DNA from: Verrucomicrobiales bacterium
GTDB lineage: Bacteria; Verrucomicrobiota; Verrucomicrobiia; Verrucomicrobiales; DEV007
Length of the DNA stretch: 57,192 nucleotides
NCBI GenBank assembly: GCA_029213195.1
Contig: JARGNI010000037.1
Span: 1-57,192, forward strand
Direction of reading: 5' to 3'
Below the pieces are notes generated by a model. The model saw only the letters and a list, made by a program, of their open reading frames with translations. It did not search any database and had not been told where the DNA came from. The first letter of the stretch is position 1, and each line of letters begins with the position of its first letter. This document shows, piece after piece, positions 11,228 through 14,598 of this stretch. Made by a program: the position numbers and the translations under genes.

Positions 11228-11725
11228 TCACTTATCGAAAGAAATCGATCCGTTCGCTTCGAAAACGACGGTCCGGTCCTTTTGCTTGGGTGGGTCGATC
11301 TCGATTCGGTATCTCACTCTTCCTTCGATGGTCTCTTTTTCGATGTCTTCGATCTGAGCCCGACGCTTGACCTGCTGCTCCACGGCATGACGGACCGGTT
11401 CGGGCAAGTCGCGGAGTCTGATCTCCTCGATGATCTTGCGTAGGCTTCCGTCACCGGAGATGTAGAGTTTTGCTTCCCGAAAACCCTTCAGATCGATTTC
11501 CACGAGATAGAGAACGTGATCGTTGATCCGGATCGCCTTGATTCCGTCGAGCTTCCCCCCGAGAAGATTTTGCTCGATCGTAGCCCGCACAGGAGCAGGA
11601 CACTCCGATAGCCGAACCTTCTCGGCCAGCGAAGTCAGCGTGAACGCGAGACAGGCAAGACACAAGGCCACCCTGCGAATCCGCAGCGCCGCGAAGCGTT
11701 TCCCTGTGAGTTGTAAATCGGCCAC
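11228..11725 (-). CDS. Exported PepSY-like protein, tandem domains
   Basis: A 165-aa protein with an N-terminal signal peptide (hydrophobic run VALCLACLAFTLTSLA) followed by two PepSY-like repeats. Each repeat has the pattern LPEPVR...VE/IEQ, then a YLVEID / YRIEID strand, then G-S. The first is VRLSECPAPVRATIEQ; the second LRDLPEPVRHAVEQ. PepSY-like domains are found in periplasmic proteins that modulate enzymes or sensors; no enzyme activity is known for them. The start is a GTG and could lie slightly further in. It is divergent from a paralogue and next to a two-component system, which suggests it is a target or a sensor partner of that system. Confidence 0.72.
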   Translation of the reverse strand: MADLQLTGKRFAALRIRRVALCLACLAFTLTSLAEKVRLSECPAPVRATIEQNLLGGKLDGIKAIRINDHVLYLVEIDLKGFREAKLYISGDGSLRKIIEEIRLRDLPEPVRHAVEQQVKRRAQIEDIEKETIEGRVRYRIEIDPPKQKDRTVVFEANGSISFDK

Positions 11726-11746
11726 GGTAGCAATCTACCCGCGAAA

Positions 11747-11823
11747 ATGAGGGGAAGATGAGGAAAATCGGAAAAAATGCTTCCGTAGAGGAATTCTCAT
11801 CTCTCGCTCATCTGGCTGTCATC
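11747..11823. promoter_or_regulatory. 11-bp-periodic repeat arrays in the PepSY divergent promoter
   Basis: The 166-base divergent promoter holds two arrays. On the plus strand TCATC occurs at 11797, 11808 and 11819, exactly 11 bases apart, in the contexts CTCATC, CTCATC and GTCATC. In the opposite orientation ATGAGG (CCTCAT on the minus strand) occurs at 11747 and 11758, again 11 bases apart. One more TCATC lies off-register at 11843. Direct repeats with an 11-bp period are the known binding pattern of OmpR/PhoB-family regulators (the PhoB box repeats TGTCA at 11 bp). I infer these are sites for the adjacent response regulator, one array per gene. Confidence 0.6.
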
Positions 11824-11891
11824 TTTGGAAGAGAGACTCTTCTCATCGCAGATATCCCGTCTCGATTCGCAGCCTCAACCATAGAAAAAAC

Positions 11892-12368
11892 ATGAGATCC
11901 CACCATCGTCCTTCGCTGATGCCCCTGTTTAGCGGGCTTCCCTTTGAGAGAATTTTCGAGGAGGTTTCCCTCGAGGAGTGTCCCGACAAGGTTGCGGAAT
12001 CGATTGAGCGCAATCTCAGTTCAGGTCGGATCGAAAGGATCCTGGCTGTAAGGGGAAGCCGACGCCCCTATTTCTTTGTCGAGGTCGCGCTTGCCGATCG
12101 TCATGTCTGCAAACTGCAAATTTCGGAAGAAGGGGTTTTGATCAGCCGAGTCGATGGGATTCGTCGTTCCGAATTGCCGGAGACCGTTCGTTCCACGGTG
12201 ACCCACTTTCTCAAGGCGGGCGCACGCTTCGACGCAGCGGACCGGGTTTGTACGTCCATGAGCGAAGAGTTTCATGTCGAACTGGATCTCGGGAACAACC
12301 TCGATCTTCACCTGTTCCTCGACGAAAGCGGTGTCGTCCTCCGCAGGCATGAAGTGGGTGACTTCTAA
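11892..12368 (+). CDS. PepSY-like protein, paralogue of the divergent gene
   Basis: A 158-aa protein that aligns by eye with its divergent neighbour: VSLEECPDKVAESIERNL against VRLSECPAPVRATIEQNL, and RRSELPETVRSTVTHFL against LRDLPEPVRHAVEQQV. It therefore carries two PepSY-like units. Unlike the neighbour it lacks a clear signal peptide (start MRSHHRPSLMPLFSG), so it may be cytoplasmic, or its true start may differ. It contains two Cys, one in each unit. It lies 158 bases upstream of the response regulator on the same strand and could be co-transcribed with it. Confidence 0.68.
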   Translation: MRSHHRPSLMPLFSGLPFERIFEEVSLEECPDKVAESIERNLSSGRIERILAVRGSRRPYFFVEVALADRHVCKLQISEEGVLISRVDGIRRSELPETVRSTVTHFLKAGARFDAADRVCTSMSEEFHVELDLGNNLDLHLFLDESGVVLRRHEVGDF

Positions 12369-12408: not shown

Positions 12409-12429
12409 CCCTCCTCGTGAACAGGAGGG
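12409..12429 (+). repeat. Inverted repeat between the PepSY gene and the response regulator
   Basis: CCCTCCT-cgtgaac-AGGAGGG is a perfect 7-bp stem with a 7-base loop, without a T-run. It may be an attenuator or a processing site between the two genes, or an operator. Confidence 0.4.
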
Positions 12430-12526: not shown

Positions 12527-13201
12527 ATGCGTCTCCTTCTTGTAGAAGATTCCGATCGCCTCCGGAAGAACCTCGCCAAGGCGCTTTCGAAGCTCGGGCA
12601 TGCGGTCGATGAAGCAGCGGAAGGGGAAGCTGCGGTCTCTGCAGTTCGCGTCAACGACTACGATGTAGTCGTTCTCGACCTCATGCTGCCCGGCAAGAGC
12701 GGGCTCGAATTGCTGGAAGAATGGCGGAGGCGGCAGGAGACTGTTCCCATACTCATTCTCACCGCGCTCGACGCGGTGGAAGATCGTGTGCGAGGCCTCG
12801 CCATGGGCGCTGACGACTACCTCGTAAAGCCTTTTGCGCTTGAGGAGCTGGTTGCTCGCCTCGAGGCATTGCTCCGGCGAAGCCGCGGGAAGGTGGATTC
12901 GAAGGTCGAGATCGGAAGTTATGAAATCGATCTCGCCTCCCGCGTTGTGAAGCGGGAAGGGGTGGAAATCGTCCTGACCGCTCGGGAGTTTTCGCTGCTC
13001 GAGTGCCTGGCGCGTCACCCTGGGAGAGTCATGAGCCGGGAAGAGATCGAGTCGAAACTCTATGGGGAAGCCGGTAGCCCAGTGAGCAATGCTGTGGATG
13101 TTGCGATCTACGCGCTTCGCCGGAAACTCTCGCCTGGTGACGCTCCGCCGATCATCCATACGAGGAGAGGACTTGGGTACGTAATGCAGGAGAAGCCATG
13201 A
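12527..13201 (+). CDS. OmpR/PhoB-family response regulator
   Basis: A 224-aa regulator. The receiver domain has the acidic pair Glu7/Asp8, the phosphoacceptor Asp51 in VVVLDLMLPGKSG, the switch Thr79 and Lys101 in YLVKPF. The C-terminal winged helix (about 128-220) has VLTAREFSLLECLARHPG and IIHTRRGLGYVM, typical of OmpR-type DNA binding. Its stop overlaps the kinase start in ATGA, so the pair is translationally coupled. It most likely controls the adjacent PepSY-like genes through the 11-bp repeat arrays, but this rests on location and repeat geometry only. Confidence 0.95.
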   Translation: MRLLLVEDSDRLRKNLAKALSKLGHAVDEAAEGEAAVSAVRVNDYDVVVLDLMLPGKSGLELLEEWRRRQETVPILILTALDAVEDRVRGLAMGADDYLVKPFALEELVARLEALLRRSRGKVDSKVEIGSYEIDLASRVVKREGVEIVLTAREFSLLECLARHPGRVMSREEIESKLYGEAGSPVSNAVDVAIYALRRKLSPGDAPPIIHTRRGLGYVMQEKP

Positions 13202-14598
13202 AGTCGATTCGGAGTGAATTGGCCAGGCGACTGGGAGGGGTGGCTCTCGTGATTCTCCTCATCGGGGGAGGGGGATTGTATTTCTCTCTCCGCAGTGCGT
13301 TGGAAAGACAGTTTGATGAGGTCCTGGTGGCCAAGGCTGGAGCACTGATGATGGCCTCGGAGATCGATGATGGCGAGTTGGAGATCGATTTGGATGTGCA
13401 GACCTTTGCCGGTTTCGGGACTGGAGTGAGAGGAGACTATTTCGTGGTCTTCGAAGAGGATGGAGCGATTGCCATGAGCTCACCTTCTCTTGGCACCGTC
13501 GAGTTGCGGCCTCCCCTTCGGTTTCGAGAGGCGAAAGAGGGGTTTGCCAGGGTCGATCTTCCAGAGAATGTCTCCGGCCGGGCCTTCTGGACCTCCTACC
13601 AGCCGGCCCTGGATCGCAACGAGGTTGAAGAAAGAGAGCCTCCCAGTCTTAAGATTCTCGTTGCGAGTTCCGATGCGACCTTGCGCCGGACCCTGCGAAC
13701 GACTGCCTTGTTCGTTTCCATTTTCGGAGTTATTGGGGTGCTTTTGACGTTTGCGATTTCGAAGTCGGGAGTTCGATCCGGGCTGAAACCGCTCGATTCG
13801 CTCAGTGAAGAGGTCGAACAGATCGATGTGCATCACCTTGCTCGACGAGTCTCTCTCGAGGGGATGCCGGAAGAGCTCCTTGGAATCGGGTCCAAGATCA
13901 ACGAGTTGCTGGCACGTCTCGAAGATTCCTTTGGGAGAGAGAAACGTTTCACCAGCAATGCGGCGCACGAATTGAGAACGCCACTCGCGGAACTACGGAC
14001 GATGACAGAGCTCGGAACTCGATGGCCTGAAGAGTTCACCGAGGAACATGGAAATGAGATGCTCGAAGTCATTTCGGATCTCGAGGCCTTGCTTGGAACT
14101 CTTTCTTTGCTCGCAAAGACGGAGTCGAAAGCCGTGGCTCACAGGAAAGCGATCAACCTGGAAGAGACCGTCTCCGAGCTCGTGGAGCGAGGGCGCTCTC
14201 GGATAAAGGAAAGAGAACTCGATATCCGTTGCGAGATCGCCAATGAAGAATTCTACTCCGATCCGGTGCTTTTCCGAACGATTCTCCAGAACCTCCTCGA
14301 CAATGCGCTCGATTATTGCCCAGAGGGCAGCACGATTCGAGTGGCCGCAGACAGCGAGCACCTGATTGTCGAGAACCCGGTCCATGACCTCACCGAAGAG
14401 GATCTCCCCCAGCTTTTCGCTCGATTCTGGCGAAAATCCCGATCCCGGAGCGAGAAGGAGCACTCTGGGCTCGGTCTTTCGGTCGTGCGCGCCGCAGTCG
14501 AGCATCTCGGAGGTTCCTGCCGGGCGGAACTCCAAGACGAAGTGCTTGGGGTCAGGATCGATTGGGCGACGCGGGCGACGCGCGAAGGCTTGATCTAA
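13198..14598 (+). CDS. Sensor histidine kinase
   Basis: A 466-aa membrane kinase, partner of the overlapping response regulator. It has one transmembrane helix near residues 14-32, a periplasmic region of about 125 residues without a named domain, and a second helix near 160-182. A HAMP-like linker follows. The HisKA motif NAAHELRTPLAEL gives the phosphoacceptor His257. The HATPase domain has LLDNALDYCPEG (N box), and HSGLGLSVVRAAVEHLGG (G2 box). The periplasmic part is acidic (EIDDGELEIDLD), which might bind cations or peptides. Signal unknown. Confidence 0.94.
   Translation: MKSIRSELARRLGGVALVILLIGGGGLYFSLRSALERQFDEVLVAKAGALMMASEIDDGELEIDLDVQTFAGFGTGVRGDYFVVFEEDGAIAMSSPSLGTVELRPPLRFREAKEGFARVDLPENVSGRAFWTSYQPALDRNEVEEREPPSLKILVASSDATLRRTLRTTALFVSIFGVIGVLLTFAISKSGVRSGLKPLDSLSEEVEQIDVHHLARRVSLEGMPEELLGIGSKINELLARLEDSFGREKRFTSNAAHELRTPLAELRTMTELGTRWPEEFTEEHGNEMLEVISDLEALLGTLSLLAKTESKAVAHRKAINLEETVSELVERGRSRIKERELDIRCEIANEEFYSDPVLFRTILQNLLDNALDYCPEGSTIRVAADSEHLIVENPVHDLTEEDLPQLFARFWRKSRSRSEKEHSGLGLSVVRAAVEHLGGSCRAELQDEVLGVRIDWATRATREGLI

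Follow-up and report, generated by a model that had tools for sequence, protein, structure and literature searches.

What do the short repeats between two divergent genes for small proteins do, and which regulator would read them? The repeats lie in a 166-bp intergenic region (11726-11891) of the window, by which we mean the whole stretch of 57,192 nucleotides of a Verrucomicrobiales genome analysed here. On the plus strand TCATC starts at 11797, 11808 and 11819, every interval being 11 bp, and on the minus strand CCTCAT occurs twice, read on the plus strand as ATGAGG at 11747 and 11758, again with an interval of 11 bp. The original prediction had given these five positions and this spacing, and all are borne out by the sequence; its repeat unit CTCATC holds for the TCATC core, which is found in all three plus copies, but not for the third plus copy, which reads GTCATC instead. 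An extra CTCATC at 11842, 24 bp on, is outside the 11-bp register.

These repeats are genuine and exceed what chance would give. Among 5000 dinucleotide-preserving shuffles of the 166-bp region, some 5-mer triplicate arose in 3 at 11 bp and in 51 when every equal spacing of 6-22 bp was counted. TCATC-N6-TCATC was found twice in the window (60 shuffles: mean 0.33, maximum 2) and 27 times in the 5.9-Mb genome, compared with 5 for the reversed pattern; genome-wide, only at this intergenic region do such pairs overlap to form a triple. As a definition of the regulon this short pattern is too loose, given its 27 matches, of which those on contigs 21, 55 and 78 were followed up. Moreover, once a single mismatch is tolerated, the window has 10 copies of the short pattern where 7.3 are expected, which is no enrichment, and thus the case rests on position and conservation.

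The genes and promoter elements are collected in Table 1. On the plus strand the order is PepSY-like gene, response regulator and sensor kinase. A DbfQRS-like module is marked by a PepSY-domain gene lying no more than four genes from those of a kinase and a regulator, and this arrangement is present.

Table 1. Genes, operators and candidate promoter elements around the divergent promoters, in window coordinates
Feature	Position	Strand	Basis or remark
PepSY-like protein, 165 aa, GTG start, hydrophobic N-terminus	11228-11725	-	fold
Candidate -10 hexamer TAGATT	11732-11737	-	13 bp past start of second TCAT
Minus operator, two half-sites CCTCAT 11 bp apart	11747-11763	-	faces minus PepSY-like gene; second of 17 own-genome model matches
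Outer (third) plus copy TCATC	11797-11801	+	11796-11806 just 5/11 identical in closest relative
Plus operator core, half-sites TCATC at 11808 and 11819	11808-11823	+	18/19 identical in closest relative over 11807-11825
Candidate -10 hexamer GAGACT	11833-11838	+	14 bp past start of third TCAT
PepSY-like protein, 158 aa, without obvious hydrophobic signal sequence	11892-12368	+	fold
OmpR/PhoB-family response regulator	12527-13201	+	Response_reg, Trans_reg_C; presumed binder of both operators
Sensor histidine kinase	13198-14598	+	2CSK_N, HisKA, HATPase_c

That both small proteins are of PepSY type, as had been proposed, stands by their fold and not by their sequence. Their AlphaFold2 models (pLDDT 87.1 and 87.4) both resemble DUF2874/BLIP-like periplasmic proteins of Bacteroides and relatives, and Foldseek matched each model to 8 PDB chains with E < 0.001; its matches include entries titled calcium-binding. 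Neither protein matches the Pfam models PF03413 (PepSY) or PF11396 (PepSY_like); with a threshold of E 0.1, PF11396 is matched by 6 of the 22 members of the PepSY-like family and PF03413 by 2. (Twenty-three PepSY-like proteins were found; L043 was excluded from A1, and L039, L043 and L048 from A3.) The best 11-mer hydropathy is 2.55 in the minus protein, 1.25 in the plus protein and 1.10 in the closest relative of the latter, and the plus protein may have lost export. The response regulator carries D51, T79 and K101. The best-scoring NCBIfam models for regulator and kinase are the heavy-metal types TIGR01387 and TIGR01386, with scores below the curated cut-offs (200.3 versus 279.2 bits and 199.1 versus 292.55 bits, respectively). 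In the 158-bp gap between the plus PepSY-like gene and the regulator gene we noticed a hairpin, CCCTCCT-N7-AGGAGGG, at 12409-12429 (plus strand), with no T run; a structured hairpin gap was rejected, as its folding is no better than that of shuffles (z -0.49).

Which of the repeats are kept was read from the same promoter in the closest relative (genome G011), whose regulator is 84% identical. Identity is 29/32 over 11732-11763, which holds the minus array with its -10 hexamer, and similarly high over the second and third plus copies, while the spacer 11764-11795 shows 14/32, the stretch 11826-11838 around GAGACT 5/13, and 11839-11891 28/68 alignment columns. The footprint agrees with one site per divergent promoter and with the expectation that the repeats would be found again in relatives, two being kept on each side. 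The proposed asymmetry of three sites versus two is not supported as a conserved arrangement: just 5 of 11 positions are retained in the outer plus copy, compared with 18 of 19 in copies 2 and 3, and within 3 kb of the regulator start no other of 69 loci has three TCAT in 11-bp register. The conserved plan is two half-sites per side, and the outer copy at 11797 is probably a lineage-specific extra half-site.

For recurrence beyond the closest relative, regulators were searched in 56 genomes and then in 288 genomes of the order, of which 60 gave a match at E 1e-60 or better; the 69 loci with flanks are 68 places from the order-wide search, window included, and one from the 56-genome search. Of 236 genomes sampled across the class, 8 gave a regulator match at E 1e-68 or better, every one of them within this order. 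The consensus TCATCTTCNCRTCATSTTC, drawn from such loci, has 60 sites with at most 3 mismatches in 46/69 loci, and its reverse has none. TCAT pairs on the regulator's strand peak at 11 bp (54 pairs, followed by 19 for the 12-bp spacing; 68 loci with the window left out, 353,239 bp), and on the opposite strand of the same 68 loci there is no 11-bp peak, with 9 pairs at this spacing. When regulator identity is at least 60%, an 11-bp TCAT pair on either strand occurs in 24/25 loci, compared with 3.8 loci on average and 8 at most when the spacing is different. At lower identity the number of loci does not by itself single out the 11-bp spacing: at 50-60% the count is 19/33 versus at most 18 for another spacing, and below 50% it is 6/10 versus at most 6. 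An operator is found at the orthologous regulator's own locus in 22/25 relatives with at least 60% identity, the close loci lacking a good site being L038 (where the contig ends at the gene), L222 (4 mismatches) and L042, which is among the 24 with an 11-bp pair and has a site poor by sequence. Allowing 1 mismatch, the pattern gave 13 matches in 12/56 genomes versus 1 control match; 7 of them are at regulator loci and 1 is on contig 55 of this genome. Outside the order, none of 79 named loci has a site with 2 mismatches or fewer, 1 has a 3-mismatch site and 9 have a 4-mismatch site. A locus from a different family of the order, L263, likewise has opposed operators of this type: they lie some 126 and 83 bp before the regulator start, in the interval shared with a divergent gene. 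Because of this second family, divergent operator pairs are either old or arose more than once.

As the consensus was drawn from relatives' loci, this genome serves as an independent test. The sequence model was built from 47 sites, none from this genome, after two of 49 non-own sites (L241 -585 and L242 -1517) were excluded from alignment A2 as doubtful. It gave 17 matches, of which rank 1 is contig 55:1381 (24.9 bits) and rank 2 the window's minus array (21.6 bits, E 9e-4); ranks 3, 5 and 6 are three sites at the locus of a paralogous regulator on contig 21, and five of the top six matches are upstream of genes. Rank 4, C81:134769, sits within a coding gene, which we take, by eye, to be that for pyruvate dehydrogenase E1 alpha, and was rejected as an operator, being probably chance. 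The plus array is missing from the 17 matches and reaches 5.1 and 3.4 bits within the window. A longer pattern with at most 3 mismatches gave 67 genome matches versus 17 for the control, and with at most 2 mismatches nine, four at contigs 55, 78 and 21 and one (C81) coding. Model matches away from regulator loci were seen in two relatives (G011 contig 12 and G032 contig 86), within a search of eight relatives that is circular, all eight having supplied model sites; only the own-genome search is independent. The gene behind the genome's best match (L292, contig 55, 1383-2817) starts about 77 bp past the site, but its reading frame stays open only briefly; a PDZ protein is encoded in a different frame immediately downstream.

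The sites also have a fixed relation to a putative promoter. Over 54 sites with 4 mismatches or fewer in 44 loci, window sites included, a hexamer of the form xAxxxT starts 14 or 15 bp past the start of the second TCAT in 43, and every other offset from 5 to 29 is taken by 0 to 4 sites; with a 17-bp spacer the -35 position then lands on half-site 1. Direct half-sites about 11 bp apart, a fixed -10 distance and a -35 position on half-site 1 are what is expected of OmpR/PhoB tandem sites, and the last feature is described for PmrA at pbgP and for PhoB promoters (PMC4660055). In the window the two distances are 13 bp (minus) and 14 bp (plus). TAGATT is conserved at L031 and lies 6 nt ahead of GTG 11725, the sole ATG, GTG or TTG start ahead of the domain of the minus PepSY-like protein, an arrangement also found in the closest relative. 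Because of this short distance, the minus message may be leaderless. For 13/48 sites with at most 3 mismatches, a mechanically chosen start codon is 36-42 bp from the site start, which is where transcription would begin. In the open-licence literature, no paper on such leaderless messages was found.

Based on the 11-bp peak, the fixed -10 distance and the recurrence at the regulator's locus in relatives, the identification of the repeats as OmpR/PhoB-type tandem sites is upheld, and we consider it probable (roughly 0.82) that the two arrays are separate operators for a phosphorylated regulator of this family, most likely the product of 12527-13201, and that they activate. The phosphorylated regulator would bind as a head-to-tail dimer to two half-sites 11 bp apart and, since the -10 distance puts the -35 position on half-site 1, would stand in for the -35 element at each promoter, leading to activation. 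The strong minus operator would drive the outward PepSY-like gene, and the weaker plus operator the other PepSY-like gene and then, by read-through, the regulator and kinase, amounting to autoregulation. By analogy with DbfQRS, the kinase would receive feedback from a PepSY-like protein once it is exported; such feedback is the likeliest role here, and a DbfQRS-like autoregulated module is likely. What speaks against activation through two operators is the plus array, which is weak in the sequence model, with 4 mismatches to the consensus, and absent from the 17 genome matches.

The operators could be real and yet have another main binder, the paralogue on contig 21, or both regulators could compete for them, giving one cross-wired regulon. 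The paralogue is 50% identical to the window regulator, has three sites of the same type at its locus and shares the recognition-helix frame SNxVDxAIYxLR; the operator stands at the orthologous regulator's own locus in nearly all close relatives, however, and we regard this reading as unlikely. Still less likely is repression, in which the regulator would block polymerase at the -35 position. Overlap with the expected -35 position suits a repressor too, and ArcA of the same family mostly represses (PMC3798270), but the fixed 14-15 bp to the -10 hexamer and the missing room for a separate -35 element resemble the activated PhoP, PmrA and PhoB promoters (PMC3335776, PMC4660055). That chance alone produced the repeats in this intergenic stretch is extremely improbable, since the near-expected count of the one-mismatch pattern is outweighed by the conservation footprint, the spacing peak and the rank in the own-genome search.

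With activation by the adjacent regulator as the preferred reading, several known systems can be compared. In Vibrio cholerae, DbfQ, a PepSY protein, acts on the kinase DbfS by binding it and favouring its phosphatase activity, and the reported findings suggest that the dbfQRS operon regulates itself positively (PMC12714742). The likeness lies in a small PepSY protein gene adjoining regulator and kinase genes, and the same source reports that two PepSY genes, or opposite strands, occur elsewhere too; its passages on DbfQRS describe no opposed operators, and the word stem Verrucomicrob is absent from its main text. The window pair differs further in being two-repeat BLIP-like proteins, for which kinase binding is putative. 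A divergent PepSY pair under two operator copies would fit DbfQ-type PepSY feedback on two-component systems.

The BqsR operator of Pseudomonas aeruginosa, TTAAG-N6-TTAAG, likewise has pentamers 11 bp apart; according to the sections available, its proximal pentamer overlaps the -35 element, and pentamers 3 and 4 are critical with the others additive (PMC4682146). The bqsRS genes are also adjoined by PepSY genes (PMC12714742). The half-site is different, TTAAG there and TCATC in the window, and TTAAG is absent from 11726-11891, so that no BqsR-type operator is present in this region. In one BqsR promoter it was the two proximal pentamers that proved critical, the extra ones being additive (PMC4682146); a role of the latter kind would suit the non-conserved outer plus copy. 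PmrA shares the head-to-tail dimer on two half-sites, the -35 position at half-site 1 and recognition-helix Asn188 (PMC4660055), ArcA sites are direct repeats with 11-bp spacing, to which further copies are often added (PMC3798270), and PhoP boxes have a fixed distance to the -10 element and orientation dependence (PMC3335776); ArcA and PhoP are different regulators with half-sites other than those of the window. The conserved OmpR/PhoB-type operator pair is of an ordinary kind, while its sequence and lineage would be new as far as searched, no paper on such an operator in Verrucomicrobia being evident from titles and abstract beginnings in the open-licence literature. It would provide a concrete, testable DNA code for an uncharacterised Verrucomicrobiales regulator family, tied to PepSY-like and EF-hand proteins.

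The operator also follows the regulator tree, on which the motif label (40/69 rows) needs 9 changes, compared with a mean of 22.5 when shuffled and none of 500 shuffles as low. In one clade of 13 rows labelled motif-less, a form TAAT-N7-TCAT, recognised after looking, lies 41-62 bp before the regulator gene in 13/13, and in 12/13 a -10-like hexamer follows at 14 or 15 bp. PmrA recognises bases by Asn188, Asn196 and Arg210 in the structure as reported (PMC4660055). Our numbering agrees with that of PmrA in the recognition stretch, and Arg214 here matches PmrA Arg210. Asn188, Arg198 and Arg214 are present in 69/69 regulators, the window regulator thereby retaining the base-contacting Asn188 and the minor-groove Arg of PmrA. 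Residue 196 is different: it is Asn in PmrA and Ala in the window regulator, and in the TAAT clade it is Asn in 12/13 and Met in 1/13. The 40 TCAT rows have A, S, Q or G at this position, and the remaining 16 rows never have Asn, so that Asn occurs in 0/56 outside the TAAT clade. The change in one clade may be a single event, and its tracking with a TAAT first half-site is suggestive of a specificity link, and not proof. This natural pair of residue 196 and first half-site would offer a handle on specificity change in OmpR/PhoB regulators.

The genes behind the sites are PepSY-like genes and the regulator itself. Nine other downstream proteins were checked, and six have EF-hands (two at L047 and one each at L046, L241, L232 and L261, that of L261 also with PSCyt domains); the L241 gene was kept here although its site was left out of A2. 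The remaining three are DUF3616 (L221), PSCyt/PSD1 (L047) and PDZ (contig 55) proteins. PepSY and EF-hand proteins both include lanthanide binders, LanP and LanM, respectively (PMC11845868); with these and the calcium-binding titles among the Foldseek matches in mind, a metal signal is our guess. A more doubtful, tentative extension is an order-wide operator code, in which one Verrucomicrobiales regulator family would control, through one common operator, secreted cation-binding proteins, PepSY-like or EF-hand by branch, and Asn196 would match the change from TCAT to TAAT. If true, it would amount to a natural specificity switch for OmpR/PhoB regulators, a regulon sensing metal ions (calcium, iron or lanthanide), such circuits being almost unread in the phylum, and leaderless messages from several target promoters. 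This genome has another divergent promoter of this kind, likewise with two opposed operators, at L047 (contig 21, 5171-5344). It lies between the gene of an EF-hand protein, which also has a hydrolase match below threshold, and that of a PSCyt protein, with the paralogous regulator alongside.
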